Below, piece after piece: positions 1,886 through 50,905 of a stretch of DNA of 64,000 nucleotides. The notes beneath the pieces were generated by a model. The model ran no database searches, was not told the origin of the DNA, and was given only the letters and a program-made list of their open reading frames with translations. This stretch comes from Ligustrum vulgare (taxonomy: Eukaryota > Streptophyta > Magnoliopsida > Lamiales > Oleaceae): assembly GCA_963555705.1 (NCBI GenBank), contig OY743171.1, positions 15,127,352 through 15,191,351 of the forward strand. Direction: 5' to 3'. Position 1 is the stretch's first letter. The number at the start of each line of letters is the position of its first letter. Position numbers and translations under genes: made by a program.

Positions 1886-3652
1886 ATGGCTCGAAGCAAG
1901 CAAACCGGAAGGAGGAGAGTCACCAGAGGCGGTGGTGGCATTGAAGAATCACCTCAACCAGACCCATCGAGGATGGGAACTCCTAGCGGCGCCATTGTTC
2001 CTGTATCACCATCCGGCACCAGCCCAACGCCGACTTCACTCTCTACCGCCGGTCCTACTCCAACACCTGCTCTCCCCATGGCCCAAATAAGCCGGAACAC
2101 GCCAATTCTTCCAAAAGGCATGGGCGTAACCTTGGCACCCATATCAGGTAATCTTGGGTCCAGCCATATCTCTCCCTTAGATATTCGTAGTGAACTGGAG
2201 GGAGCACGAAAACTTGCTGCCATGAGAAGTGCAAGAGATGCGAAAATTGGGGGTGAAGACGGTGGAGATGAATCTGATGAAATTGAATCTGGTGATTAAA
2301 AGGAAAAACTAGAGGAGCAGGAAGAGTTTGGGGAGGATGAAAAATCTGAGGAAGACAAGGACTCAGACGAAACTGGGGATGAAGCACCACCAGTAGAGCC
2401 AGAGGAGTCTGAGGATGAAGACGAGTCTGAACAGTCGGAAGAAGAGACTGAAAAGGAGGTTGTAATCCCAGACAAAAAGGAAAAACAAAATGTAGAAGCC
2501 ACTGCGAGTTCGAAGAAGAAAAAGGGTGACACAGCTGCGGGTCCAGTGAGATCCAAGTTTGATGTATCTTCATTCGTCTGCACCCCCATGCAGAAAGCAA
2601 GAGGTATGTTTACCCCATTCAATTTCAAAATTTGGTCGTCTGAGGCATACACTGATTTCCAAAAACACATTTTGGTTAAACGGTTGCATTATGAATCTAG
2701 AGTGACTATAGGCGAATTTGATGATTTTGAGATTGATGATATTGTGTCACACTTTGGGTTGAAGAAATTGACTGATTGTAAGGGGGAGATCAATGAGACC
2801 CTGGTCAAGGAATTTTATGCCAATATCCCTATTGACTATAACTCCAAAAAATGTCTTTTTACCACTTCACTATTTGTTAGGGGACAATTAATTAAGATTT
2901 CTGCAAAAGAACTTAGAAAGTGGTTAGGATTGAATGAGAATGTGGCTGATGAGTATGAATCTATGGAAGCCACTAATGATGAAATTGCAATGGAGTTGTC
3001 AGGGGGTAAAATCACGTGGCCGGTTAAGGGGTTAAAATAATCTCCTAGGTCGGATATTTCCAAGAAATACCAAATTCTTCACAAAATTGTAAATGCAAAT
3101 TTTGACCAACTCATCCATGACTCAAGCTTTAAGAGAGAGTCTGCCAGAACCTTGTTTCTCCTGGGGACTAATTGAAACATAGACCTTGCTGCACGAATCT
3201 GGAACTCAATCACCGGTAGGGTCTCGGGGAGTGGCCCTCGACATGGGAATACTTATCTATTGGTTTACCCTTGGATTATTTCACAGTTTCTGAGTGATCA
3301 GGGTGTCCAGACGCTGGAAGATGATCTGGTGATCACCCCCAAGGTGTTGAACAGGGCCAGATGCAGAAAACCTTTGGAGGGACATACCACTCCCAGGAAA
3401 CAGGTTGTGGATGAGGCTACTGGGACTCAGGATACAACTGGTATAGATGTCAGGATACACCAGCTGGAAGCGAAGAATGTTGGGTTGAAAACAGACATAT
3501 CTGAACTCAGTGTGCGTGTCAAACATCTTGAAGACACACTAGATCAGCTGCTTGGAGGGTCTTCGACAGATGTGGCTCCAGTGGAAGCCAAGGAAAAGAG
3601 GACGGTTGCTCCCAAAAAGCTCCCTGCCTCAAAGAAGCAAAAGAAGACCTGA
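1886..3652 (+). pseudogene. Second (envelope-like/plant transposon protein) ORF of the Copia element, copy A
   Basis: Reading one frame from ATG 1886 gives a protein of about 588 codons, interrupted by three nonsense codons: TAA at 2297-2299, TAA at 3038-3040 and TGA near 3172. Copy B has sense codons at these places (GAA, CAA, CGA), so two of the three are C-to-T changes. The product has a basic, Pro/Ser-rich N-terminus starting MARSKQTGRRR, an acidic Glu/Asp-rich stretch at about residues 120-205, a globular middle (KEFYANIP..., FVRGQ...) and a C-terminal heptad-like coiled coil (IHQLEAKN...). Such ORFs downstream of pol in SIRE elements are called envelope-like, but no signal peptide or membrane segment is visible here. 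The role is unknown. Confidence 0.8.
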
Positions 3653-11360: not shown

Positions 11361-11395
11361 TACTTTGACAATAATTTTACTGATGTGATTATTTT
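9635..11395. other. AT-rich gene-free tract with microsatellites
   Basis: It contains a (TTA)n tract at about 10558-10596, a (TG)n/T-rich patch near 10447-10470 and (AT)n at about 11297-11356. ORFs here are low-complexity products of these tracts. At the position of the last tract copy B carries (TG)n (61572-61622). ATTTT at 11391-11395 is the left target duplication of the LTR element that follows. Confidence 0.7.
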
Positions 11396-11572
11396 TGTTG
11401 TAAAACAATAGAGAATATAGAGAGAATCAGAGAGAACTTCTCATTAGGTATATTTCTAATGAAATGAAATAGCCCCTATTTATAGGAGGGGACAATGGCA
11501 CAATCGTAATATATAAAGTTTACAGGGATATAATGGTAATGTCATTCACATATTTATATATTATTTATAACA
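11396..11572 (-). repeat. 3' LTR of the LARD-like element
   Basis: 177 bp with TG...CA ends. On the plus strand it is followed by CTCCCCCTT, which is the polypurine tract AAGGGGGAG when read on the element's strand (11573-11581). Confidence 0.92.
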
Positions 11573-11605
11573 CTCCCCCTTGAATGACATATTCCGCAAT
11601 TGCCT

Positions 11606-12312
11606 ACCTCGTTAAAACTTTGCTAAGAAAACCCAGTGGGATAAAATTTGAGCGAAGAAAAAAGAGTACAGCTGCTCCCCCTGATGTTGACCATCATTAA
11701 TCATTGAGTCTAATATCCATCAATGATAAATAGTACAAATCATATACTGAAGTCTGAAGTGTTTCGGTGCTTTAGTGCTTCAGTGCTGCCTCGTTAAAAC
11801 CTTGTCAGTAAAACCCAATGGGGCAAAATCTGAACGAAGGAAAAAGAGTACAGTCGCTGCCTCGTTAAAACCTTGTCATGAAAATCCTGTGGGACAAAAC
11901 CTGGACGAAGGAAAAAGAGTACAGCATGACAGCATGATTCTCCCCCTGAAGTGTGCAATCAAGTATTCATGAACCTTTTGAATAATGATATCATCTTTCG
12001 TCTGGAATGTGTATATATGAAAATCTTCTTGTGTGTAGCCGATATCATAACATTCTTCATAAGATGTGTATGATTTTCTTCATTTGTTGATATCATTCCA
12101 GTATAACAATGTGTTGCTGAATTATAACTTGTTGATAGCTATGATGATGCCTCAAAAACCTTGTTAGGAAAACCCTGTGAGACAACCTCAGCGAAGGGAA
12201 AAAGAGTACATTATTCTCATTAATTTTCATCAATACGCCTCAACTGTTGCCTCATTAAAAACCTTGCTAGGAAAACCCTGTGGGACAAAACCTCAGCTAA
12301 GGGAAAAAGAGT
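11606..12312 (-). repeat. Spaced tandem repeats next to the 3' LTR
   Basis: At least five copies of a unit of about 60 bp, each with CCTCGTTAAAACCTTG- or CCTCATTAAAAACCTTG-like sequence, an AAACCC..GTGGG core and GAAGGAAAAAGAGTACA, occur near 11606, 11789, 11858, 12145 and 12246. Such arrays are familiar from 3' untranslated regions of some plant Copia elements. They have no coding meaning; the plus-strand ORFs over them (11775-11972, 12177-12422) are fortuitous. Confidence 0.8.
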
Positions 12313-12485
12313 GTAACGCGTATTTATTCCTTTTCATGGAATATCACAAGTATATTGATGCAATCTCGTATCTTTTCATCAAACATATCATTCATGATGA
12401 GCTTTATATAAATCGTTCATAGCTCATTTATGATGTCATAACATGCTATATTAAGCAATGTTGTACTAATTTATCGATTGCATCT

Positions 12486-13743
12486 TTCACTTCTGGTGAA
12501 TAATCAAATTTAGAATTCACTTCTGGTGAATAATTAAATATATTCATTCTCATATTCACTTCTAGTGAATAACCAATTTCCCAGATGTCATAAATAGTAC
12601 ACTCCAATTTCACTTTCAACATATTATATCATGGAGTCATTTGTATCATCTTATAGTGATACTAATCTGGGTATATTGAATCTTTCAATGATTTATACAT
12701 GAATGTTCTTGCACTTTATAAACTGCAATTTCTAATTTGCAGGAGCATAATCAATCATTGAAATAGATATCAATTTTTGACATATAATCTACAATCATTT
12801 TACTTGAAATCCCAACGTACCGCGATCAACTGGTACATCAAAGAATACTCTCAAAGTACCGAGATGAGAATCATACATTTTGATCTCACTCATTGGTATA
12901 TCAAAGAGCTCAAGCTAGTGATTTAGATTATAGTCTATCCACCATATGTCATGCCAGTTTAATGAAAAATTTTGCGCGCAACGAGTCGTCTTTTACGACT
13001 GTGAAATATTTTTCATTTGTACATATAATTACTGGCTTTATACATTTAAGTATTTGGACTTCAGGTCCTTGAACAATAATCCCTACATTGGGGTTATATA
13101 CTTGGCCAAAGTATTATAATTTCATCAACCTCATTTTCATAAGAGGGTATGCAGTCGACTTATTTATTGATTCCATTTTAATATAACATAGAGAGATCTC
13201 TGTATATGTTCTATCATCAGGTACCTGAATATCTCATCATTTAGCTATGTCCCTTTTACTCACCATGAGTATTTATCCTCAAAGGGATAATATTAATCAT
13301 TCAAGAGATATTTATTTTTGGAATCGATAGTCATTATGCTTCAGGCATAATTATGCTTCAGGCATAATTATGCTTCAGGCGTGTTTTCCTCATAATGTTC
13401 TCAAATATTATCAATCGGCTAAAATGCCATAACACATGTCATTCTTTTAGAGATATAATCTCAATCATCATATATCTAAGTGCGCTTTGGTGGATTGTAT
13501 ACATATCGCACTTTTACAAATCATAAAGCTTCACAAGCAAATCTTTATTTCATAGTATTGACATGTTTATAAAATATTGCTTTTGAGAACAAGCAGCAAT
13601 AATAACAATCTTCTGGTTCTTTAATGAATGCCATTTTTCATTCTCAATAAATCTCATTATTGAATTGGAATCTAACCAATCATTATAGAACTTCTGGTTC
13701 AACAAGATATTTCACTTGTACATATGTATGAACTTCTGGTTCA
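12486..13743. repeat. Array of micro-hairpins with constant loop and variable stems (left block)
   Basis: Small perfect inverted repeats share a TTCTG/TTCAG/TTCTA loop but have different stems. Examples are TTCAC..GTGAA at 12486-12500, ATTCAC..GTGAAT at 12515-12531 and 12554-12570, GGAC..GTCC at 13056-13068, ATTATGC..GCATAAT at 13333-13351 and 13350-13368, GAAC..GTTC at 13688-13700 and TGAAC..GTTCA at 13729-13743. Stem sequence changes from site to site while complementarity is kept. The block lies on the left of the captured ORFs. Function is unknown. Confidence 0.8.
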
Positions 13744-14029
13744 ATACAGTATTCATTTCATCAGTACGTATTTCTGTACAGTTCAAATCAGTATACCTTT
13801 ATTACTTTTATACCGAAAAATCAGGTACAATATCCAAGGAAATATCTCATGATCTCAATCTTGTCGCCAAATCTTCCCTTTTATCGAAAAAGGTAATGAC
13901 GCATTATCTCACATTTTCAATAATTTATTCCATTATTTCTTGATGGAATCGATATCACTGACACGCGGAGCCACCGCTCTTTTATGCATTTAAATAGATG
14001 ATTTGGGAAGAAGGCTAGATTTATCAAAA

Positions 14030-14410
14030 ATGGATATCATAGTTTCAAATATTCGCAAATATTATTCCAATCTTCCAGTAAATGATTTGAGAAAAATTTA
14101 TCGAATTAGGCTTGAAAGATTGAGGTTGCTGATGGATCATGGCATCCCAGAAGATGTTCGCTGGTTGATCGAAGCAAAAGTTCGATTAGCTGGTGAATTA
14201 CCAGATTCATTTTCTAAGCACAAGCCTGGCTTAGGTAAGAGTACTTTTGCAAAGAAGCGAAGAGCAAAAAGATTAAATAGTTGCTACAAATGTGCTCGAT
14301 GGACATGTGATACCCGTTGTAAGTCAATAGGGTATTCATCTATAAATCGAGATGATAAGATAGACTTCATTAAGGGTGGACTGAGTAAGGAGTCATTGGA
14401 TGATATCTGA
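14030..14410 (+). CDS. Viral-type cysteine-rich nucleic-acid-binding protein-like ORF, captured
   Basis: 126 codons from the first ATG of the frame; the frame is open back to a TAA at 13991 without an earlier ATG. The second half has GKSTFAKKRRAKR (about residues 69-81) followed by a Cys cluster (C85, C88, C93, C97) and a KIDFIKGG-like tail. This arrangement, G-K/R-S-x-x-A-x-(K/R)RRA with nearby zinc-binding cysteines, is the hallmark of the small nucleic-acid-binding proteins encoded near the 3' end of carla-, viti-, tricho- and allexivirus genomes. In those viruses the protein binds nucleic acid and often counters RNA silencing. No other viral gene was recognised nearby. After the TGA the same frame stays open for 54 codons to a TAA at 14573-14575. 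The ORF lies antisense to the host LTR element. Expression is unknown; a plant Cys-rich protein of independent origin remains possible. Confidence 0.6.
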   Translation: MDIIVSNIRKYYSNLPVNDLRKIYRIRLERLRLLMDHGIPEDVRWLIEAKVRLAGELPDSFSKHKPGLGKSTFAKKRRAKRLNSCYKCARWTCDTRCKSIGYSSINRDDKIDFIKGGLSKESLDDI

Positions 14411-14781
14411 TTGACTCTTGAGACACACCCTAGTGGGTATGTGCAGCGTGAGCTACTATCTTTATGGGCTAAATTCATCAGCGATAAAGAGCGTTATAGT
14501 CTCAAAAATATAATAGCAAAAGATCCTGTTTGCCAGGCTGTTATAAACAATGATGTTTTGGCTATACAGCACTAATACAAGGTAAATCATTTGATATATA
14601 TGCACATATAAAATATTTTTCTGTTTCTTTTCACGAGTTTTGATAAAGGCTGGTTAAAAATATTAAATCACCGAAAGGTGAGTAGGGTGATTTTGTCAAA
14701 AGTAAATCTTCACTTTTTCGAAATACGAGTAGTAAATAGTGAAGTTTTTCAAGTTTAAAAAGCCAATGATTTTCATAGTTT
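14411..14781 (+). other. Gap between the two captured ORFs
   Basis: Bases 14411-14575 are an in-frame open extension of the viral-type ORF. Bases 14576-14781 are AT-rich and non-coding, with a hairpin AAATCACC...GGTGATTT at about 14667-14696 (8-bp stem). No LTR-element sequence is recognisable here. Confidence 0.5.
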
Positions 14782-15486
14782 ATGCATCCCAAAATAACAT
14801 TTTCTCGTAAGTTTTTCCTTCCTTATTCTCTCAAAGATGGAAGGACCAAAACTATCTGTGTATTTTGTGGATCAAAAGTAGGAAAAGGTTTTGGGTATCT
14901 AGAATCAGCCGTGGATTTAGGAAAGAAGTTGGGAGAGAAAGGTATCACTCTCGTGTATGGAGGAGGTAGCAGTGGATTGATGGGTTGTGTTTCACAATCC
15001 GCTCTAGCAGAGAAAGCAAGAGTGATAGGTATTATACCTACTCCTTTAGCTGATATTGCAGGAAAAACACGAGGTCATGAAGTACAAACCTTATCTATCC
15101 ATGAACGCATAACTTGCATGTTATATGGTTCTGATGCCTTCATAGCTCTACCTGGAGGTTTTGGTACTTTAGAAGAAATCTTTAATATTACCTCATGGGC
15201 TCAACTAGATCTCCATACTAAGCCTATTGGGCTTTTAAATGTAAACAATTTCTTTGATGGTTTACTAACATTTCTTGATTATGCTGTGAAACAAGGATTC
15301 ATCTCTCCATTTTCTAGGAGAATCCTTATTTCTGCTCCTACTATCGAGGAACTGCTGGATAAGTTGCAATCATATATTTCAATACAAGATCCAGCAGGAT
15401 TTAAGATAGATTGGTCGCAAGGAAGGGGAATCAAGCGAAAATGGAGTCCGGTTAATGTAAATTTATCTTTGGGAACTCTAGAATAG
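14782..15486 (+). CDS. LOG-like: LOG-type cytokinin riboside 5'-monophosphate phosphoribohydrolase (intronless, captured)
   Basis: 234 codons from ATG 14782, complete and without introns. LOG enzymes release active cytokinin bases from cytokinin nucleotides in the cytosol and nucleus. Diagnostic motifs are all present: CVFCGS (residues 26-31), VYGGGSSGLMG (58-68), the HER arginine (107-109) and PGGFGTLEE (124-132), followed by SWAQLDLHTKPIGLLNV. Length fits the family, with a short N-terminal extension and a C-terminal tail (KIDWSQGRGIKRKWSP...) like that of a plant LOG subgroup. Plant LOG genes normally have several introns, so an intronless copy inside an LTR element indicates retro-capture or transfer through an RNA intermediate. 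It lies 371 bp downstream of the viral-type ORF on the same strand, antisense to the element. The intact frame and catalytic residues suggest recent or selected capture. Catalytic function is inferred. Confidence 0.85.
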   Translation: MHPKITFSRKFFLPYSLKDGRTKTICVFCGSKVGKGFGYLESAVDLGKKLGEKGITLVYGGGSSGLMGCVSQSALAEKARVIGIIPTPLADIAGKTRGHEVQTLSIHERITCMLYGSDAFIALPGGFGTLEEIFNITSWAQLDLHTKPIGLLNVNNFFDGLLTFLDYAVKQGFISPFSRRILISAPTIEELLDKLQSYISIQDPAGFKIDWSQGRGIKRKWSPVNVNLSLGTLE

Positions 15487-15700
15487 GTGGTGATAGAGTA
15501 CGGAGTATTCTCACTCTTGAGACACACCATAAATTTCTGGGATTTTATCAATGTTTTAATTTTGTGTACCTCAAAGATTTAAGGTGGTAGAGTATGGAGT
15601 ATTTCTTACTCTTGAAACACACATTTTTCTTTATTTCCTCAAAAGGTCAGAGGTGGTAGGATACGGCTACTCCCGAAACACATCTCTAATTTTGAGGATC
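15485..15700 (+). repeat. Triplicated short repeat downstream of LOG
   Basis: Three diverged units begin near 15486, 15583 and 15648. Each has GGTGGTAGA/GGTGGTGATAGAG, then TACGGAGTATT-like sequence, then ACTCTTGAGACACACC-like sequence. The last part also occurs at about 14412-14427, inside the extension of the viral-type ORF, so related repeats sit on both sides of LOG. Confidence 0.75.
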
Positions 15701-15744
15701 ATAAATGTTTTCCCCTTTTGCATTTTGCATGTATGTCTCGTTTA

Positions 15745-16502
15745 TGCTTCTTCAGGAGCAATAATAATATCATTTCAGTATGTTTAGATGATAATTTTTA
15801 CTTCTTCTGGAGTAAATATGTACTTCTTCTGGAATATATAAGTGCTCGTGCAAGAACTTTTCCAGACACTTATCATCTAATATTCATCTCATAATACTGA
15901 TGAGATTATTTTCACATTAGCTATGTCCGTGCTATCATGTGATATTATCTTATCATACATCAACATTCTCTTGTTGAATAATTTTCATCCACCCATTCAA
16001 ATTCAGATATTGGTAACTTCTGGTACCATTGGATAAAACATTTTTTATCAATATTTATCAACCTTTTGGTAATGATAACTTATGATATCATTTGATAAAA
16101 TATTTTCTAACTTTAGTATTGATAACTTCTGGTATCATTTAATGAAGTATCAGATAACAATAATATTTTATATATATTAACAATAATAATACTGGGGTTA
16201 TACCACCAAGTATATATGTTGACAACAATCCTCTAATATGTTAGAATTAACCAACAATTGAGGTGTTTATATGTATTCAATTGATAGACCGACCATATAG
16301 GCGGAACATAATAAAATAATTAAACCGGCCATATAGGCGGAATCGACATAATGAAATAATTAAACCGGCCATATAGGCGGTATCAATATCATGAAATAAT
16401 TAAACCGACCATATAGGCGATGACATGATATAATTAAAACTGGTAAAGCTAACCATGTAGGTGGTAAAACCAACCATGTAGGTGGCAGCATGATATAATT
16501 CA
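15745..16502. repeat. Array of micro-hairpins with constant loop and variable stems (right block)
   Basis: The hairpins continue: TGCT..AGCA at 15745-15760, TTTACT..AGTAAA at 15797-15816, TCAACA..TGTTGA at 15960-15977, TGGTA..TACCA at 16011-16028, AATGATA..TATCATT at 16071-16092 and TGATA..TATCA at 16120-16137. Loops are mostly TCTTCTGG or ACTTCTGG. From 16288 to 16485 a second family is in tandem with a spacing of about 46 bp: CCG-gccatatagg-CGG several times, then CCA-accatgtagg-TGG, a paired G-to-A/C-to-T change. Confidence 0.82.
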
Positions 16503-16509
16503 ATTACCT

Positions 16510-17712
16510 TTCATGAGTGAGCGAGTCATATCTCTAAATCCAGTCAACGTATTCATAATAGTCCAGGTCGTTACGATAATGAGTTATACTCAACACATCA
16601 CGACTTGGCAACTATTATGTTACTTTTAAATCTTTTAATTTATCATATTGATCACATAATAATGTTAAATAATTTAGAATATATATTCTATTAACACTTA
16701 TCATCATATCATTAATAATGATTAATCAAATTCGTTAAATCACGATTAATATAATTTAACGTATCATCAAGGGTAAAATCGTCCATATTTTAGTATATTG
16801 ATCATATGGATAAATCGAAACCGTCAATAAGTTTAAAATTAAATTTAGAACAAACTTACTTTTAGTCCGAAGTTCAAAATTCCGTCGGAACTGCTCCAAA
16901 AACAGTTTTTAAGAAAACCGCCACGTTCGACCGCCGGAAAATTTCAAAACTGCACAAAACATAAAAGTAAGATCATAGAAAAATCCGAATCATCAAGACG
17001 AACAAACTGCCTTTTGACGTCATCGCCGGAATCCGTTCACGCGCCGCCGCCGGCCGCCACGCGCCGCCGTCAACCGATGGTCGGAAAAATCAACACATCA
17101 CCATTATATGTGCCTCGACGTCCTGAACATGCCCATGATCTCCGTTTCTCCAAAAGACCAACCATTTGGCCAGAATCAGCATTTTTTAGTCCGCCAGCAT
17201 CTTCTTCTCCGGCCAATAACTTCCGTTTTAACCGTCGGATCGGCGCCAAATTTTAGTCGAGTCTTCTCCTAGAAAATACCGTTGATATGCCGCTGGCCGA
17301 TCATTGATCGGAGTTTAGAATCGTCCGAAATAAGCGTTTCAATTTCCGGTCAGATTTCTGTTTTTGCACAGTTTTCAGCTTTTGTTCTCCGGTCGATATC
17401 TTTTGTTTCCGTCGTTGGATCATCCCCAAATTTCAGGCGAGTCTTCTCCTCGACAAGCCTGTTCTGATGGCGGTGGCCGATCGTCGATCGGATCTCTGAA
17501 TCGGCCGGAATCATTCTTTTTCAGTTCGACCAGAAATAGTTTAAAAATTGGATAAATTTTCAGATCTACAATATATAGGTTATTTTCTAAAACCAAAAGT
17601 GTTTGATTTGAGAAAAGGAAACATTGATTAGTAATAATCAGGTTTCTGATATAGAGGTTCATCATTTAGATGCAACTGTAGAGCATACTCCCGTTATATT
17701 ACTCAATTGGTT
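16510..17712 (-). other. 5' internal region of the LARD-like element, no gag recognised
   Basis: AT-rich to about 16900, then markedly GC-richer (about 16920-17530). The GC-rich part includes an imperfect direct duplication of roughly 180 bp (about 17210-17345 and 17395-17520) with TCTTCTCCT and two palindromes, CCGATCattGATCGG and CCGATCgtcGATCGG. Proline/serine-rich ORFs on the plus strand here are composition artefacts. No start of gag or protease motif is visible. Confidence 0.55.
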
Positions 17713-17732
17713 AGAGACTCGTGTTGATAACG
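17713..17732 (-). promoter_or_regulatory. Candidate primer-binding region of the LARD-like element
   Basis: Read on the minus strand, the bases just inside the LTR are CGTTATCAACACGAGTCTCT. The position fits a primer-binding site. It does not match the tRNA-Met 3' end, so the primer may be another tRNA or an internal tRNA fragment. This orientation agrees with the polypurine tract at the other LTR. Confidence 0.5.
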
Positions 17733-17909
17733 TGTTGTAAAACAATAGAGAATATAGAGAGAATCAGAGAGAACTTCTCATTAGGTATATTTCTAATGAA
17801 ATGAAATAGCCCCTATTTATAGGAGGGGACAATAGAACAATCGTAATATATAAAGTTTATAGGGATATAATGGTAATGTCATTCACATATTTATATATTA
17901 TTTATAACA
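17733..17909 (-). repeat. 5' LTR of the LARD-like element
   Basis: 177 bp, nearly identical to 11396-11572, with differences at about three positions. Followed by the target duplication ATTTT at 17910-17914. Confidence 0.92.
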
Positions 17910-18140
17910 ATTTTATTTTTTTATTAGTTATTCACGTGTGCACCAGGTCATTACTTACCAAGTCATTACTTTCGTTAAGTAATTTAACGGTATTATTATT
18001 AACTCAGAATGGCATAATTTATTCCAACCTTTTCAATTAACTCCGTTGTTTTTTTTCTCCCTGGGCGGTCATACCACGGCCGACGCAAGTTTTTCTCGTG
18101 AGCAAGTTCAGCGATTCATTGTCGTAAAGGCACATCAGAA

Positions 18141-20063
18141 ATGGCTTCCAGAACCGCTCCAAGAGGTAAACTTTCATCAATATTCATACACTCATCAAAA
18201 ATATCCAAACGCCCAATTCAACTTCAAACGCCAACCCCAAATGAAAATGTTACAAAAGACTGTAAATTATCCTCAGAAATCAACACCAATGATTTATTAA
18301 CCTCCTTTCATAATATGCTCAAAATGAAACCCTTGCCATACATCACGTCATTTACCAAATTGATGGGCGTTGTTGCCAAAACCAAGAATTATCAAGATGT
18401 GATTTTTATGTATCATAAGATGGTTGACGCTGATATATTTCCTGATTATATAACACTGAATATTTTGCTCAATTGTTATGGTAGCTTGAAAAGGGTTTCT
18501 CTAGGTTCTGCTGTAATGGGTTTGATTATCAAGAGGGGGTATAATCCTGATATTATTACATTTACTTCATTGATTAAAGGGTTCTGTTTGGAAGATAAGA
18601 TTGATGATGCAGTTGTATTGTTGAATAAAATTATTGGATTGGGTTTTCAACCAGATGTTGCAACTTGGACTACATTGATTAATGGGTTATGTAGGAGTGG
18701 CAATGCAGAGGTTGCTCTTAGGTTTTTTAGAGAAGTGGGAAGCAGTAAGGAGAGGTCTGATTTGAGATTTAAGCCTAACGTAATTTCTTATTCCACGCTT
18801 ATTCATGGTCTTTGTAAAGAGGGGTTGGTGGACAAGGGTAAACAATTATTTTTGGAGATGAAGGACAGGGGAATTATGCCAGACGTGGTTACATATGGTA
18901 CTTTAATTCATGGTTTGTGTGACAGCGGGGATTGGGAGGAGGCAAAGCGATTCTTCATTGAAATGGTGGATGATGGCATTCGTCCTAACGTTAATTTGTT
19001 TAATATCTTGATGTACGCACTTGGTAACGAGGGGAAGATTGATGAAGCGTGTGGGTTGTTGAACTTGATGATTCAAAGGGGTGAAGAGGCCGATTGTTTT
19101 ACATTTAATGCATTGATGAATGGGCTCTGCTTAGAGAGTAGGATTGAAGAGGCAAGGGAGTTATTTGATATGATGGAGACTCGAGGCCATAAACAAAATG
19201 TTGAAAGCTACACAGTGTTAATTAATGGGTATTGCAAGTGTCAAAAAGTGGAAGAAGCCATGAAGCTTTTCAAAGAAATGGTATGCAAAGAATACAAGCC
19301 GGATGTAGTTACATTCACCGCTCTGTTGGCTGGCCTATTTCAAGTAGGTAAAGTTGAGGATGCACGAACACTTTTTGCAAAGATGAAAGTCCATGAAGTG
19401 CCTCCGAATTCTGTAACTTATGGTACATTATTCAGTGGACTTTTAAAAAATAATTGCGTTGATGAGGCAATGGAGTTGTTTCACACTATTGAAAGATCTA
19501 GCTTTAACTTTGACATTGGTACCTATAATTGTGTCCTTGATGGATTGTGTAAAGTAGGAAAGATCAAATTAGCCAATGAGCTATTTGCAAAATTGTCTCA
19601 TAAGGGCTTGGAACCAACAATCTTTACTTATAACATCATGATCCGTGGATTTTGTAAAAATGGTGAAATGGAGAAGGCAAACAGTTTGTTACACGACATG
19701 GAAAGGGAATGTTGTGCACCCGATTTGATCTCTTTTAACACGCTTATGCTAGGATTTTGCTCTGATAAAAAGCCATCAAAAGTAGTTGAAATTCTTGTGA
19801 AAATGAAAGAGAGAAATATCTCCCCAAACGAATTCACAGTGTCCATAGTTCTAGATATTTTGTCCAAAGATGAAAACTATTCAAAATATATACGCCTGAT
19901 TCCAAAATTTTCTTCCAAGGCTGAATCAAAGATGAAATGTTGTAATCATGAACTTTTAGCTTCTCAGCCCTCCACTGATTTTAAAGATGTAATCAAGTTC
20001 ATGTTGTTGACGAAACCTGGGAATGCGGAAATGGCGTCAACAAATGATTGCCGGCTTACCTAA
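18141..20063 (+). CDS. P-class pentatricopeptide repeat protein (RF-like)
   Basis: 640 codons, intronless, from ATG 18141. After an N-terminal stretch rich in Ser, Arg and Lys with few acids, consistent with an organelle-targeting peptide, the protein is an almost continuous array of 35-residue PPR motifs from about residue 65 to 570. Repeats such as PDVVTYGTLIHGLCDSGDWE and PNVISYSTLIHGLCKEGLVD are typical of P-class, restorer-of-fertility-like proteins. These bind organellar RNA, usually mitochondrial, in a sequence-specific way through residues 5 and 35 of each repeat. No DYW or E domain is present. The C-terminal tail after about residue 575 is not PPR-like, and its last 12 or so codons overlap a CDT1 relic in another frame. 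This is the best candidate for a functional single-copy gene in the window; promoter elements were not resolved. Confidence 0.93.
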   Translation: MASRTAPRGKLSSIFIHSSKISKRPIQLQTPTPNENVTKDCKLSSEINTNDLLTSFHNMLKMKPLPYITSFTKLMGVVAKTKNYQDVIFMYHKMVDADIFPDYITLNILLNCYGSLKRVSLGSAVMGLIIKRGYNPDIITFTSLIKGFCLEDKIDDAVVLLNKIIGLGFQPDVATWTTLINGLCRSGNAEVALRFFREVGSSKERSDLRFKPNVISYSTLIHGLCKEGLVDKGKQLFLEMKDRGIMPDVVTYGTLIHGLCDSGDWEEAKRFFIEMVDDGIRPNVNLFNILMYALGNEGKIDEACGLLNLMIQRGEEADCFTFNALMNGLCLESRIEEARELFDMMETRGHKQNVESYTVLINGYCKCQKVEEAMKLFKEMVCKEYKPDVVTFTALLAGLFQVGKVEDARTLFAKMKVHEVPPNSVTYGTLFSGLLKNNCVDEAMELFHTIERSSFNFDIGTYNCVLDGLCKVGKIKLANELFAKLSHKGLEPTIFTYNIMIRGFCKNGEMEKANSLLHDMERECCAPDLISFNTLMLGFCSDKKPSKVVEILVKMKERNISPNEFTVSIVLDILSKDENYSKYIRLIPKFSSKAESKMKCCNHELLASQPSTDFKDVIKFMLLTKPGNAEMASTNDCRLT

Positions 20064-22102: not shown

Positions 22103-23059
22103 AGATCATTAGTTGGAATGTGAGAGGTTTGGGAGGGAGGGATAAGAGAAAAGTTGTGAAGGATCTTTTGTGTAAGGAGAAACCTGATGTCGTAACAATT
22201 CAAGAAACTAAGAAGGAGGTAATAGACAAGAGATTGATTGGTAGCATTTGGGGCTCTAGATTTAAAGAATGGACTTTTTTACCATCAATTGGCAAATCTG
22301 GAGGAATATTGATTATGTGGGATTCAAGGATACTCAGGGGTAAAAAAAGTTGTTATGGGTAATTTTTCAGTTACAGTACTCTTACAACCGGTCGGAGGGG
22401 GGGAAGGGTGGTGGTTCTCTGGGATATATAGTCCTTGCCGTTCAAAAGAACGAGGGGAATTTTGGGAAGAACTGGGTGGTCTGTACGGACTAGGGGGTGA
22501 AAGATGGTGTGCTGGAGGTGATTTTAATGTGGTCAGATACCCATCGGAGAAGTTGAATGGAAACAGATCTACTAAAAGTATGAGAAATTTTGATCGTTTC
22601 ATAACAGAGACAGGGTTAAGGGATCTGGCACTATCAAATACACAATTCACGTGGTCAAATATGAGGGAAAGACTGGCGTGTTCTAGGATAGATAGATTCT
22701 TATTTACAGAAGGATGGGAAAATTTGTTTGAGATAGTTAAGCAAGAAGCTCTTGTGAGGGTGACATCTGATCATTGCCCCATTGTAATCGATACGAGCAG
22801 ATTCAAATGGGGTTCTACTCCTTTTCGTTTTGAAAACATGTGGTTAAGGCATAAAGATTTTAACAACAACTGGAAGAGGTGGTGGGATGATTGTGATAAC
22901 CAGAGGTGGGCAGGTTACACATTTATGGAAAAATTGAAAAGAATAAAGGAAGAGTTGAAAGTTTGGAATAAAAAAGAATTTGGAGATGTGAGATTGGAAA
23001 AAAAATCAATCATGAACAGAATTCAGGAAATAGATAAGAAAGAAGACACAAAACATTGA
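22099..23059 (+). pseudogene. LINE ORF2, endonuclease domain
   Basis: It starts MKIISWNVRGLGG, the first motif of the APE-like endonuclease, followed by TIQETK, then GDFNVVRYP, FTWSN, SRIDRFL and SDHCPIV, all motifs of the L1 endonuclease that nicks target DNA. A frameshift near 22338 in a G/A-rich run splits the domain: the first frame stops at 22362, and the second continues in frame to a TGA at 23057-23059. The protein cannot be made as one chain. Confidence 0.88.
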
Positions 23060-23186: not shown

Positions 23187-25790
23187 ATGTTCCACAGGAT
23201 TGCAAGTGGGAGGAAAACAAACAATCTGATCAACAAAATTGAGAGTGATAAGGGATTGATGCTATATACAGAACAGGAAATAGAAAATGAAATCATAGGT
23301 TTTTTTGAAAACATTTTTAAAAAGGAGGTGGTTGCCGATTTTGGCATTGATGGTCTAGATTGGAAGGAGATCGAATTGGGAAGTAAACTGAAGCTGGAAG
23401 AACCATTTACAGTAGAAGAAGTGAAACATTGCCTATTCAGATGTGAAGGTGATAAAGCTCCAGGTCCAGATGGTTTCTCTATGGCAGCACTACAGGAGGG
23501 ATGGGAAGTGATAAAAGAGGATTTGATGAATGTTTTCATGGAATTCCACAAAAATGGTATTGTGAACGTTAGAGTAAATGAAACATTCATATGCCTAATC
23601 CCCAAAAAACTGAATGCAATGTCTATCAAGGATTTTCGACCAATTAGTCTGGTTTCTTCTCTTTACAAAATTTTGGCAAAAGTTCTATCTCTGAGACTGA
23701 AGGTAGTTTTACCAGAAACAATTGATACGGCCCAATGTGCTTTTGTAAAGGGAAGACAAATTTTGGATTTGGTCTTGATAGCAAATGAAATCGTGGAGGA
23801 GTATAGGGTGAAAAAGAAAGAAGGTGTGGTACTTAAGATCGATTTTGAAAAGGCATATGATAAAGTTAGCTGGGAATTCCTTGATTATGTGTTGGAGAAG
23901 AAGGGTTTTGGTGAGAGATGGAGGAAGTGGATAAGGGGATGTTTATCTTCAACAAATTTTTCTGTGATGATCAATGGAAAACCAAGAGGAAAATTCGGAG
24001 CATCTAGAGGCTTAAGACAGGGTGACCCTCTATCACCTTTTTTATTTATCTTAGTTGGAGATGTTTTGAGCAGAATGGTGAACAAGGCCTGTAATGAAGA
24101 TATGATAAAAAGCTTTAAAATAGGAAGGAACAATGTAAGAATATCACATCTTCAATTTGCGGACGACAGTATCTTCTTTTTGGAAAATAAGGATGAGAGC
24201 ATCAATAATCTAATGGCAATTCTTGACATTTTTTCTAAAACCTCAGGACTAAAAATAAATTTGGCTAAGAGTACAGTGGTGGGTTTAAATCTAATGGAAG
24301 AAAGAATTGAACACATAGCACAAAATTGGGGTTATCTTAAGGGTGTGTGGCCACTCAATTACCTCGGACTACCTTTAGGGGGAAATCCAAATGCCTATTC
24401 TTTTTGGAACCCAGTGATAGAAAGAATTGCAAAAAGACTAGAAGGGTGGCATAAAGGTTGTTTGTCACGTGGTGGGAGACTTATTCTTCTCCAATCGGTA
24501 CTGGGAAGTATTCCCACATATTTCATGTCAATCTTTAAAATGCCGAAGAAGGTGACAAAGGTGATCGAGAAAATGATGAGAGATTTTTTTTTTTGGGAAG
24601 GCCAGGGAGAGAATCATAGTGACCATCTAGTCAAATGGGATATCGTGTCGAAACCAAAACAATTTGGTGGGTTGGGAATCGGGAATTTAGAATTGAGAAA
24701 CATGGCCTTATTAGGGAAATGGTTATGGCGTTTCCCCAAAGAATCGGAGTCACTTTGGCACTCCATCATTCTTAGTAGGTATGGCTATCACTCTAATGGA
24801 TGGGATGCAAATATTGGATTGAACTCCACCCTTCGGGCACCATGGAAATCAATTGCAAGAGCTTGGGACAAATTTATGGAAAACATCAAATTTGTGGCGG
24901 GAAAAGGTGATAAAATCCGGTTTTGGCTTGACAAATGGATTAGTGAAAAATCATTTCAAGAGGCCTTCCCTAGACTTTTCCGTCTATCTAACAGCAAAAA
25001 TGCTCTCATTTGTGATATGGTTACCTCTCCATTAGCCTCAAGTCCGGTTTGGAACTTAGTTTTTGACAGGAATCTCAGTGATAGAGAAACTGAAGAATTC
25101 ACTTCCCTACTATATATTCTTGAAAATACCCACATGGATACTTCTTCACCTGATAAAAGAATATGGAATGCCCACCCATCGGGTGAGTTTTCTTGCAAAT
25201 CTTTTTTATATACTTTATCTCAACCAACATGTCACACCTCCTATCCACTTTTTCAATTCATTTGGAAGAGTGTGGTACCCTCTAAGGTTAAAATTTTTGT
25301 TTGGTTGGCTTCTTTGGGAAAGGTGAACACTTGTGACGTGTTGCAATTGAAAAGGCCATATTTGAACATATCCCCCTCACACTGCATTATGTGTAAAAAG
25401 GCGGAGGAGAACATCGACCATATATTACTCCATTGTGCGATTGCTAGAGACATTTGGTGCAGAATTTTGTGTATATTTGGTGAAGAGATGGCATTACCAA
25501 GAAGATGGTCAGAAATGATAGGGATAAAATTTTCATTTGGGGGAAACAACAAGGAAAAAAAGGCGATATGGAAACTAGTTTTAATATCATCAGCTTGGAC
25601 AATATGGACAGAAAGAAACCGGAGGATTTTTGATAATATTGATAGATCGTTGGAGGATATCTGGGATAATATTATTTTCCTTACAGGATTATGGGCCAGA
25701 GCTGCTGGAATTTTTAGTGGTCTAGAACATTTTCTTTTTCGACTGGATCCTAATAGTTCTTTATGTTCCATTGTAATGAATTGTTACTAA
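23187..25790 (+). pseudogene. LINE ORF2, reverse transcriptase and C-terminal domain
   Basis: 867 codons open. Motifs: KAPGPDGF (template/palm entry), FRPISL, IDFEKAYDKV, GLRQGDPLSPFLF and the catalytic LQFADDSIFF. The long C-terminal part includes NYLGLPLGG, GLGIGNL and a zinc-binding RT-associated domain, CIMCKKAEENIDHILLHC. Upstream in the same frame a TAG (23139-23141) cuts the link to the endonuclease. The length of the open RT frame suggests a moderately old insertion. Confidence 0.92.
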
Positions 25791-42953: not shown

Positions 42954-44654
42954 ATGGAGAATTTTGCATCTCTTAGGCCACCTCTGTTAACTGGTAGTAA
43001 CTATACATATTGGGAAATTCGTATGGAAATTTTTATTCAATCTATTGATGAGCGTTGTTGGACTTCTATTCTTGAAGGATACACAGCACCCATTGTCACT
43101 GCTAGAGGTGTTGTTACAGCTATAGCTAGAAGCGCTAATACTGCAGATGAATTAGCTAATGCAAATTGAAATTCTAAGGCACTTAACGCTATTGTTTCTT
43201 TGGTTGATCCAGGTCAATTCAGACTCATCTCCTCCTTAAGGACCGGCAAAGAAGCATGGGATGCTTTGAGGAAAGCAAACAAAGGAACCAATGCTGTCAA
43301 AACCTCCAAGCTGCAGATGATCACTCTAGAGTTTGAACAACTATCTATGGATGAGAAAGAAGACTTCAAAAGCTTCTACGCCAGATTTAGTGCTCTCACC
43401 AACTCACCTGAAGCTCTTGGGAAAACCTATTCAAATGAGCAGATTGTACAAAAAATTCTTAGATCTTTACCAGACAGGTTCCATGCAAAAGTGACAGTAA
43501 TTGAAGAAAGCAAGGATCTTTCAACCATGCGAGTTGAGGAACTTGTAGGGTCATTGATGACCTATGAGTTAAATCTAGCCCGAAGAAAGAAAGACAAATC
43601 ACCAGGGATTGCCTTCAAGACGAACAGTGCAAATCCACACGACTCTGGCGAGACTGATGAAGATGAAAATTTCGTACTTCTCACCAAACAATTTAAAAGG
43701 TTCCTCAAGGGCAAACAAAAAGAAAGGTCCACAAATCTTCAAGGCCAGAATGAAAAAATACAAAAACAATGGAGGAAAAATAATTTCTATCCAAAAAATA
43801 ATACTAACTCGTCTAAAGGAAAGCCTAGGAGTCGAATTCAATGCAGAGAATGTGAAAGATATGGACACATAGCAGCTGATTGTCCCAATACTCAAAAGAA
43901 GACCAAGGGAAGGAAGGCCATGAATGTTACATGGAGTGATGGAGACTCAAATGAATCTGAATCAGAATCAGACTGCAGCAATTCCGAAAAACATGTAACT
44001 ACCCTTACTGCTTTACAGCTATCTGGTACTGAATCTGGTAACTCTTCTTATGTAGATGAATTCAGACCAAACACTGAAAACTTGAGAAAGGATCTTCAAG
44101 ATGCAAAAGAGAAGATTCAACTGTTGCAGGCCTTTACTGAGCACAGCAAAGAACAACAACTGGACGTATCTGCAGTTTTAGATGATGAACAAAATGAGGT
44201 AAGCAGGTTAAGTTCAGAACTTGCTAAAGCACAAGACAAAATCAAGAAACTGGCACTTGGATCCGTCCAGCTTGATGAAATCCTGAACAGTGGCAGACCT
44301 GTCAGCGTAAAAACAGGTCTTGGATATGAAGGTAAAGGTAAAAATCATGACCATAAAATAAACTTTGTAAGAAAATCTGGATACAGGTACATGGAACAGA
44401 ATAGAAATCATACAGATGCATCTAACTCTCATCATCATCAATACAATGCGGCTGGGACTCAAAACTTACATCTAGCCAGGAATTATGCAAGAAGACAATT
44501 TCAGCAGAATCTGTACAATCCAGATAAGTCGTCCATAAGAACGTCAAGAAATTTCAACCTCGACAGAGTCGGCAAGATACATCTGTTTTTCAGGTATTCA
44601 GTAATTTTTGTGCTAAATCTGGTCATGATGTATTTAGGTGTCATGAGTACTTGA
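42954..44654 (+). pseudogene. gag of the SIRE-like element
   Basis: ATG 42954 opens MENFASLRPPLLTGSNYTYW, the typical start of Copia gag. A TGA at 43167-43169 (probably from TGG) interrupts; the same frame resumes to 44654. The UBN2-type capsid region spans roughly residues 75-215, and a zinc knuckle CRECERYGHIAADC is encoded at 43842-43883. A Ser/Asp/Glu-rich stretch and a coiled-coil region follow, as in the long gag of SIRE elements. A frameshift near 44580 misdirects the last codons; in the other frame a second cysteine motif (CAKSGHDVFRC) is readable. Confidence 0.9.
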
Positions 44655-46066
44655 AGTTAATCAATTCACACAAAAGAAGACTTGTTTCTAGACAAGAAAA
44701 GAAAATTTGAACGAATGCTTGTGTAGTTCAATTATCTTTGAGTGCTTTGATTCCTAACACATGGTATTTTGATAGTGGATGTTCTAGACACATGACAGGT
44801 GATCTCTCTCTACTAACACATTTTGAAAAAGGCGAAACATGTTCTGTTATATTTGGTGATGGCCAAAAGGGAAAAATAGATGGATCTGGTATCATCAACA
44901 TCAAGGGATTGCCTATATTAACAAATGTCTTATATGTTATAGGGCTTAAGGAAAATTTGATCAGTGCAGGACAATTGTGTGATGATAACCTGCTTGTCAT
45001 GTTTTCAAAAGAATATTGCAAGGTTTTAAGTTTTGACAAGCAGCCTAACCCTTTAAAAAGTGTTTTGTTTAAGGGAGTTAGATCTAGAGACGAATGCTAT
45101 ACACTTGAAAGTCACATAACTTGCAATTCTGTTAAGACCAAAAATGAGAAACTGTGGCATAACAGATTAAGGCATCTAAACAATCATGATCTCATGAAGC
45201 TGACCAGACTACAGGCTGTGAGAGACTTACCCAGCATAAACAATGTTCCAGATGAAATCTGTGGTGATTGTCAAAAGGGTAAGCAAATCAAAAGTCAACA
45301 CAAATCAAGTACATCTATTAATACCTCTCATATACTTAAACTAATTCACATGGATTTGATGGGTCCTATCCAAAAGGAAAGTATTGGTGGCAAGAGGTAT
45401 ATTTATGTGTGTGTTGATGATTTCTCCAGATACACCTGGGTCATGTTTATTCGGGATAAATCTGATACCTTTGATAATTTTGCTAATCTTTTTCAGAAAT
45501 TGAGCAATGAAAAGGCAAACGAACATGTAAGAGTCAAAAGGATCAGAAGTGATCATGGAAGAGAGTTTGAAAACTCCGAGTTTGCTGATTTTTGTATCCA
45601 ATATGGGATCAAGCATGAGTACTCAACCCCAAAGACTCCTCAACAGAATGGAGTGGTGGAAAGGAAAAATAGAACTCTACAAGAAATTGCTCGTGTCATG
45701 CAAAACAGCAACATTTTGCCCACGAAATTTTGGGCAGAAGCCATAAACACTGCTTGTTATATTTTCAATAAAGTCATGCTTAGATCTGGAACAAACCAAA
45801 CTGCATATGAAATTTGGAAGGGTAGAAAACCTAGGGTTGATTACTTTCATGCCTTTGGAAGTAAATGCTACATTTTAAAAGGTAGAGAACACCTAGGAAA
45901 ACTTGACTCAAAATCGGATGATGGAATATTTTTGGGTTATGCTGAAAATAGTAGGGTCTATAGAGTTTACAATCTTAGAACTCAAACCGTTCTTAAGTCA
46001 ATTAATGTGAAAGTGGATGATAGTAATTGTGTAAATTCGGATTTGCAGGTAGCAAATAGTGATTGA
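44655..46066 (+). pseudogene. pol: protease and integrase
   Basis: The frame passes a TGA at 44708-44710 and then stays open from 44738. Protease: WYFDSGCSRHMTGD with the DSG active site. Integrase: an HHCC zinc motif (LWHNRLRHLNNH...CGDCQKGK), then the catalytic aspartates in HMDLMGP and SDHGREFEN and the glutamate in QQNGVVERKN. The frame ends with a TGA at 46064-46066, after which the same frame continues toward RT. Function is lost through the stops. Confidence 0.92.
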
Positions 46067-49138: not shown

Positions 49139-50905
49139 ATGGCTCGAAGCAAGCAAACCAGAAGGAGGAGAGTCACCAGAGGCGGTGGTGGCATTGAAGA
49201 ATCACCTCAACCAGACCCATCAAGGATGGGAACTCCTAGCGGCGCCATTGTTCCTGTATCACCATCCGGCACCAGCCCAACGCCAACTTCACTCTCTACC
49301 GTCGGTCCTACTCCAACACCTGCTCTCCCCATGGCCTAAATAATCAGGAACACGCCAATTCTTCCAAAAGGTATGGGCGTAACCTTGGCACCCATATCAA
49401 GTAATCTTGGGTCCAGCCATATCTCTCCCTTAGATATTCGTAGTGAACTGCAGGGAGCACGAAAACTTGCTGCCATGAGAAGTGCAAGAGATGCGAAAAT
49501 TGGGGATGAAGACGGTGGAGATGAATCTGGTGAAACTGAATCTGGTGATGAAAAGGAAAAACCAGAGGAGCAGGTTGAGTCTGGAGATGATGAAAAATTT
49601 GAGGAAGACAAGGACGCAGACGAAACTGGGGATGAAGCACCACCAGTAGAGCCAGAGGAATCTGAGGATGAAGGCGAGTCTGAGCAGTCAGAATAAGAGA
49701 CTGAAAAGGAGGTTGTAATCCCAGACAGAAAGGGGAAACAAAAGTCAGAAGCCACTGTGATTTCGAAGAAGAAAAAGGGTGACACAGCTGCGGGTCCAGT
49801 GAGATCCAAGTTTGATGTATCTTCATTCGTCGGCACCCCCATGCAGACAGCAAGAGGTATGTTTACCCCCATTCAATTTCAAATTTTGGTCGTCTGAGGC
49901 ATACACTGATTTCCAAAAACACATTTTGGGTAAACAGTTGCATTATGAATCTAGAGTGACTATAGGCGAATTTGATGATTTTGAGATTGATGATATTGTG
50001 TCACACTTTGGGTTGAGAAATTGACTGATTGTAAGGGGGAGATTAATGAGACCCTGGTCAAGGAATTTTATGCCAATATCCCTATTGACTATAACTCCAA
50101 AAAATGTCTTTTTACCACTTCACTATTTGTTAGGGGACAATTAATTAAGATTTCTACAAAAGAACTTAGAAAGGGGTTACGATTGAATGAGGATGTGGCT
50201 GATGAGGATGAATCTATGGAAGCCACTAATGATGAAATTGCAATGGAGTTTTCAGGGGGTAAATTCACGTGGCCGGTTAAGGGGTTAAAACAATTGCCTA
50301 GGTCGGAGATGTCCAAGAAATACCAAATTATTCACAAAATTGTAAAGGCAAATTTTGACCAACTCATCCATGACTCAAGCTTTAAGAGAGAGTCTGCCAG
50401 AACCTTGTTTCTTCTAGGGACTAAACGAAGCATAGACCTTGCTACACGAATCTGGAACTCAATCACTAGTAGGGTCTCGGGGAGTGGCCCTCGACAGGGG
50501 AATACTTATCTATTGGTTTACCCTTGGATTATTTCACAGTTTTGGAGTGATCAGGGTGTCCAGACACTGGAAGATGATCTGGTGATCACCCCCAAGGTGC
50601 TGAACAGGGCCAGATGTAGAAAACCTCTGGAGGGACAGACCACTCCCAGGAAACAGGTTGTGGATGAGGCTGCTGGGACTCAGGATACAGCTGGTACAGA
50701 TGTCAGGATACACCAGCTGGAAGCGGAGAATGTTCGGTTGAAAGCAGACATATCTGAACTCAGTGTGCTTGTCAAACGTCTTGAAGACACGCTAGATCAG
50801 CTGCTTGGAGGGTCTTCGACAGATGTGGCTCCAGTAGAAGCCAAGGAAAAGAGGACAGTTGCTCCCAAAAAGGTCCCTGCCTCAAAGAAATTAAAGAAGA
50901 CTTGA
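49139..50905 (+). pseudogene. Second (envelope-like/plant transposon protein) ORF, copy B
   Basis: Starts MARSKQTRRRRVTR at 49139. Stops: TAA at 49337-49339 (CAA in copy A) and TAA near 49694-49696 (GAA in copy A). An extra C in a run near 49869 shifts the frame, and a lost A near 50013 restores it, so the long C-terminal part 50021-50905 is in the original frame. Acidic middle, globular domain and C-terminal coiled coil are as in copy A. Each copy keeps sense codons where the other has stops, so the ancestor had an intact ORF when the duplication formed. Confidence 0.82.

Follow-up and report, generated by a model that had tools for sequence, protein, structure and literature searches.

We analysed a window of 64,000 nucleotides of Ligustrum vulgare DNA (contig OY743171.1), in which an LTR retroelement carries an ORF for a flexivirus-type nucleic-acid-binding protein (NABP) and an ORF for a LOG-family protein, and the coordinates of all features discussed here are given in Table 1. 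The element has the features of an LTR retrotransposon, namely paired LTRs with TG...CA ends, a target-site duplication, and a polypurine tract ahead of the 3′ LTR. The LTRs are 177 bp each and differ at 3 sites (98.3% identity). No tRNA was assigned to the sequence adjoining the 5′ LTR, where a primer-binding site would lie. Every stop-to-stop frame of 50 aa or more in the element, 39 in all, was scanned against Pfam, 11 of them at E values up to 1 and 28 at E values up to 0.1, and none matched gag, pol, coat, or replicase, nor did any match a piece of a movement protein. The gag and pol domains of an autonomous Copia or Gypsy element were thus found in 0 of the 39 frames. Two frames score above a curated Pfam cut-off, and these are the NABP and LOG ORFs; weak matches below cut-off were obtained for 6 of the 39 frames (E 0.04–0.083), all to unrelated families and none retroelement-like. 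These results bear out the first-pass annotation of this DNA, which had described the element as young, as lacking gag and pol, and as carrying both ORFs antisense to itself. The interior also has a 50-nt unit repeated five times and a 40-nt unit repeated four times, and we saw only this one copy of the element in the window. The element is real and unusual, and is best read as an LTR element with extra ORFs, which is an already known kind.

Table 1. Features of the LTR element and of the two ORFs that it carries (positions in the window).
Feature	Position	Strand	Basis and remarks
LTR element without gag-pol	11396..17909	-	LTR pair, target-site duplication, polypurine tract; 6514 bp; presumed minus-strand transcription
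5′ LTR (by minus orientation)	17733..17909	-	carries TATAAATA box on the minus strand, read from sequence
3′ LTR	11396..11572	-	174/177 identical to the other LTR
Polypurine tract AAGGGGGAG	11573..11581	-	adjoins 3′ LTR
Target-site duplication ATTTT	left copy 11391..11395, right copy 17910..17914	.	5 bp
Flexivirus-type nucleic-acid-binding (cysteine-rich) protein ORF	14030..14410	+	126 aa; PF05515 and PF01623 above cut-off
R1 unit	14369..14432	+	overlaps end of NABP ORF; aligned to R2 and R3
Spacer between R1 and LOG	14433..14781	+	right part AT-rich (composition of 14573-14781); TATAAA at 14607
Intact intronless LOG-family ORF	14782..15486	+	234 aa; PF03641, TIGR00730
R2 unit	15486..15531	+	starts at last base of LOG stop codon
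R3 unit	15577..15622	+	repeat alignment
R4 unit	15637..15682	+	extends to 15699 when aligned with R2

The NABP ORF scores above cut-off on two viral Pfam profiles, Viral_NABP (E 2.1e-9, 38.1 bits with a cut-off of 23) and Carla_C4 (E 1.1e-5, 25.7 bits with a cut-off of 20.9), and because both are passed, we assign it to the NABP family. The first-pass annotation had called the ORF a viral nucleic-acid-binding type and would have given up that reading had no similarity to viral proteins turned up; the two viral families were what the profile search returned. Viral NABPs are recognized by a basic stretch followed by a cysteine cluster, and the ORF has both in the form of KKRRAKR and then C-x2-C-x4-C-x3-C (C85, C88, C93, and C97). 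A coat protein gene, which is the neighbor expected from a flexivirus genome, has no match in the element. The last ~13 codons of the NABP fall within R1, which provides both the end of this ORF and the start of the next frame. With the R1 tail removed, the ORF gives 35.0 bits for Viral_NABP and 26.1 bits for Carla_C4, both still above cut-off, and because the trimmed ORF loses 3.1 bits on Viral_NABP relative to the full ORF, part of R1 may be NABP-like as judged by profile score. We considered the frame past the NABP stop (14411–14572) as the remainder of a longer NABP and rejected it, as it starts within R1, has a TLETH-coding string that occurs again in R3, and has no Pfam match; the frame at 14432–14572 in the spacer has no Pfam match either. 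Single-sequence structure prediction of the NABP was poor (pLDDT 49.0), and a search with the predicted fold returned 17 matches at E ≤ 10, of which 0 reached E ≤ 0.001; both the prediction and the search are uninformative either way. A search against PDB sequences gave two matches at E ≤ 10, the best with E 0.18, which are unrelated.

The LOG ORF is intact and intronless, as had been annotated, and scores above the cut-offs of PF03641 (E 4.1e-34) and of the subfamily-level model TIGR00730 (E 1.7e-47, 161.4 bits with a cut-off of 96.35), while the equivalog model NF058542 is matched at 105.1 bits, under its cut-off of 300. From the structure of CgLOG, a catalytic role is proposed for Arg99 and Glu122, and the adenine site is lined by Met96, Lys100, and Glu121 (PMC4979012). 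The LOG ORF keeps PGGFGTLEE (the PGGxGTxxE motif) and the catalytic residues Arg109 and Glu132, which by alignment are CgLOG Arg99 and Glu122 in a numbering mapped in this analysis, and it retains by alignment the Arg and both Glu of the CgLOG site. At the positions that map to the base-binding Met96 and Lys100 of CgLOG, the window protein has Ile106 and Ile110, where all four other LOGs compared have Met and Lys. Across the 52 columns that are invariant in those four LOGs, 41 are kept and 11 are lost, including 106 and 110. The earlier statement that all catalytic motifs are present therefore stands for PGGFGTLEE and for Arg109 and Glu132 and falls for the two base-binding residues. Judging from the alignment, the Ile changes at these two positions may go with altered or lost LOG activity.

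In a neutral simulation that took the present LOG ORF as its start and ignored indels, the frame stayed open in 12 of 1000 sequences at 70% identity; at 55%, it did so in 4 of 1000. Since so few simulated neutral sequences stay stop-free, selection on the LOG protein was likely present across much of its branch, a result that is silent on where the protein evolved. Codon and dinucleotide make-up was also considered and was rejected as uninformative. Single-sequence structure prediction of the LOG was poor (pLDDT 33.6) and counts neither way, and a PADLOC search with the LOG found nothing. The alignment with other LOGs, whose rows were cut back to the parts that matched, leaves out the first 15 residues of the ORF. 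Read from the sequence, an ATG in another frame is present at 14837, just ahead of the conserved LOG core.

The gap between the NABP and LOG ORFs, which lie on one strand, measures 371 bp as first annotated, and both ORFs end at an R unit. We scored five of the six pairs of R units (R1–R2, R1–R3, R2–R3, R3–R4, and R2–R4, with R1–R4 left out) against simple shuffles of one partner, and each score was reached by 0 of 2000 shuffles, for stretches that were picked after the repeats had been seen. R1 and R2 share an exact stretch of 16 nt; upstream of this core, R1 matches more weakly, with the R2 score reached by 64 of 5000 shuffles and the R3 score by 37 of 5000. No R units were found elsewhere in the element. 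Across the window, a BLAST search for further R units gave chance-level 10-14-mers only (E 1.6 or more), while a pattern search recovered R2 and R3 together with a single site at 35201 that has 3 mismatches, against an average of 0.46 in shuffles. The idea that the spacer is a viral junction with strong structure was rejected because the fold of 14573–14781 is ordinary (z -0.27 on the plus strand and -1.36 on the minus strand).

We then compared the LOG ORF with four solved LOGs, of which 5zbj is presumably the Pseudomonas protein and 1t35 is what we take to be Bacillus LOG (YvdD). The best solved relative in phmmer is Arabidopsis LOG3 at 197.9 bits, followed by LOG8 at 166.1 and Pseudomonas LOG at 159.8 (LOG3 being 2a33 and LOG8 1ydh; PMC4979012). 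The window LOG is identical to LOG3 at 97 of 200 positions (48.5%), to LOG8 at 80 of 181 (44.2%), to Pseudomonas LOG at 86 of 177, and to Bacillus YvdD at 66 of 176, whereas LOG3 and LOG8 are identical to each other at 130 of 183 (71.0%). By these identities the window LOG is well outside the spread of the two Arabidopsis paralogs, and 48.5% and 44.2% against 71.0% make it, in this comparison with LOG3 and LOG8, too distant to have been copied recently from an ordinary land-plant LOG. In a tree of 45 rows it is sister to the two plant LOGs (98/89) with an end branch of 1.55 changes per column, and a tree of 86 rows gives the same sister grouping (99/89, with the bootstrap not settled) and an end branch of 1.33. 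The comparison rows were the best 80 of at least 583 confirmed genome loci plus a viral-database contig (L001), of which the smaller tree used 40 of 81 and the larger all 81, and LOG3 and LOG8 are the two plant LOGs in either tree. At 28 plant-specific columns, the window LOG has the plant state at 7 and the majority non-plant state at 9; the median number of plant states over the 83 non-plant rows listed is 0, and one of these loci, L030, likewise has 7. Taken as sequence evidence, these data place the window LOG perhaps on the plant side, diverged long ago. The earlier wording of a host-derived LOG goes further than these data, which give a divergence far beyond that of the two Arabidopsis paralogs and a plant affinity that is moderate only.

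One explanation of the locus is that the element recently transduced a host LOG mRNA and, independently, a piece of viral RNA, both being functionless chance passengers. The absence of introns in the LOG, the single known copy, the young LTRs with 3 of 177 differences, and the standing of plant LTR elements as established gene transducers (PMC7264820) all suit this account, but the LOG is too far from LOG3 and LOG8 for it, given how close those two are to each other, unless the host LOG is unusually divergent, and we regard it as unlikely. A LOG of bacterial type, with a plant-associated bacterium as the donor to the element or to a virus, would explain why identity to Pseudomonas LOG equals that to LOG3, and why the highest identity among the matches listed belongs to a bacterial locus (L015, 51.2% over 162 columns), slightly above that of LOG3. 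The nine majority non-plant states also fit, and so does the AU test, in which a tree that joins LOG3, LOG8, and L030 and leaves the window LOG apart is not rejected (p 0.648); this constrained tree is in fact 4.08 log units better than the free tree. Set against this are the phmmer preference for LOG3 over Pseudomonas LOG, the sister grouping with the plant LOGs in both trees, and the seven plant-specific states, a number that L030 shares, so that we hold a bacterial source to be very doubtful.

It is also conceivable, though improbable in our judgment, that the two ORFs are one endogenized 3′ segment of an undescribed flexivirus with both an NABP and a LOG gene, the R units being viral, and that the segment is a passive rider in the element. 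Both ORFs are on the same strand with the NABP ahead of LOG, and chrysanthemum virus B has its NABP/CRP gene 3′ of the coat gene, while mandariviruses have theirs in the 3′ part of the genome (PMC9650830, PMC12172455). The long LOG branch is as expected from a fast-evolving genome, the R units were found only here in the window search, and cucumber has an endogenous betaflexivirus replicase sequence beside retrotransposon-like sequence (PMC3136472). However, the 39 frames hold no coat, movement, or replicase match, there is no evident poly(A) run past the LOG in the sequence, and our search of the open-licence literature found no LOG tied to a carlavirus or to Betaflexiviridae. Searches of IMG/VR with single sequences gave 73 pattern matches for the NABP and 8 for the LOG, none of which was confirmed, and a search with the LOG alignment gave 44, of which one contig, L001, was confirmed; two element patterns gave 0 matches there. 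L001 is a 45.7-kb contig whose LOG-like protein (4–537) lies at the contig edge and is 42% identical to the window LOG. Because R1 separates the two ORFs and each ORF ends at an R unit, the arrangement suggests two acquisitions at an element repeat as opposed to one viral fragment, and it is simplest to read R as one of the several internal repeats of the element, with both segments joined to it at R units on two occasions. Were R viral, a single block would fit equally well. The proposal that the two genes arrived together from an RNA virus is not supported, given that the R unit between the ORFs turns up again after the LOG and that coat, movement, and replicase are unmatched.

Our preferred reading, which we hold tentatively and at a probability of about 0.42, is that this is a young non-autonomous LTR retroelement copy that acquired a flexivirus-type NABP and a LOG-family enzyme as antisense accessory ORFs. 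Each segment would have entered as RNA-derived sequence at the element's R repeat, in separate events for the NABP and the LOG, with template switching during reverse transcription as the probable route of entry, and the LOG would by then have evolved for long under protein selection. An antisense transcript would yield a nucleic-acid-binding protein and a LOG. The cysteine-rich proteins (CRPs) of carlaviruses are silencing suppressors, and p12 of chrysanthemum virus B is a weak suppressor and also a transcription factor that causes hyperplasia (PMC12172455, PMC9650830). By analogy with these proteins, the NABP would dampen small-RNA silencing or act as a transcription factor, and the LOG would release active cytokinin and so favor dividing cells, where new copies of a retroelement can be passed on by inheritance; silencing suppression and local cytokinin release could in this way serve the element. 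The stronger proposal, that a retroelement lineage built a host-manipulation kit out of a virus-derived suppressor or transcription factor and a cytokinin-activating enzyme, both antisense and selected for transmission in dividing cells, seems to us a doubtful one.

Parts of this arrangement are familiar from other plant elements, and Steinbauerova 2011 reportedly deals with the LOG (YgdH) domain in plant Gypsy LTR elements. A screen of 121 angiosperm genomes with reverse transcriptase as the marker found LOG (YgdH) in Citrus consensus elements and, when no filter was applied, in poplar, and its 15 filtered extra domains are all in Gypsy elements (PMC9289625). The Citrus and Populus Gypsy elements are thus like the present one in having a LOG-family domain within a plant LTR element, but the section of that paper on extra domains names no viral NABP, whereas the present element is without gag-pol and has an NABP beside its LOG. 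Because its marker was reverse transcriptase, the screen was blind to an element such as this one. The AlkB-carrying Gypsy elements of Phalaenopsis likewise bear an accessory domain that is also present in some flexiviruses, but the domain is AlkB instead of NABP and the elements are large, at 25 kb; in the passages of the paper used here, Betaflexiviridae are mentioned for AlkB only (PMC9289625). Antisense extra ORFs are present in several families and are mostly of unknown origin (PMC7264820). The aORF-3R of Grande, RIRE2, Retand, and PvRetro13 are interior ORFs antisense to their elements, as here, but the review, in the portion on which we draw, reports for them no clear similarity to other proteins or viruses, apart from two that have an SMC domain and a transposase-28 domain (PMC7264820), whereas the present element lacks gag-pol and has two antisense ORFs of known families. 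Compared with the NABPs of carlaviruses, allexiviruses, and vitiviruses (PF05515, PF01623), the window ORF has the same order of basic stretch and cysteine cluster and passes both models, but it is in a plant element, has no adjoining coat match, and takes its C terminus from an R unit. In the open-licence literature we found no LOG joined to a flexivirus, no endogenous element with an NABP, and no viral NABP beside a LOG, while LOG domains in plant Gypsy elements have been published, as have extra ORFs in antisense orientation.

The locus therefore offers an element copy whose antisense ORFs have recognizable families, one of RNA-virus type and one hormone-activating. Should the pair recur in other copies, it would show that retroelements recruit viral counter-defense and growth-hormone genes; should it be traced to a virus, it would mean that a plant RNA virus has a gene for activating a hormone.

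Several other features lie in the window. Two ORFs with matches to Transposase_32 (plant transposon protein), at 2546–3040 and 50021–50905, have translations that are closely similar by eye, and the Pfam cut-off is missed by the former and passed by the latter. A LINE-type ORF with reverse transcriptase and zf-RVT at 23187–25790 is preceded by an ORF at 22355–23059, and Copia-type gag and integrase pieces (Retrotran_gag_2 and rve; ORFs 43200–44654 and 44738–46066) are followed by ORFs of copia-pol look up to 47883. An intact pentatricopeptide-repeat gene of 640 aa at 18141–20063 has its start ~230 bp from the element's right end.
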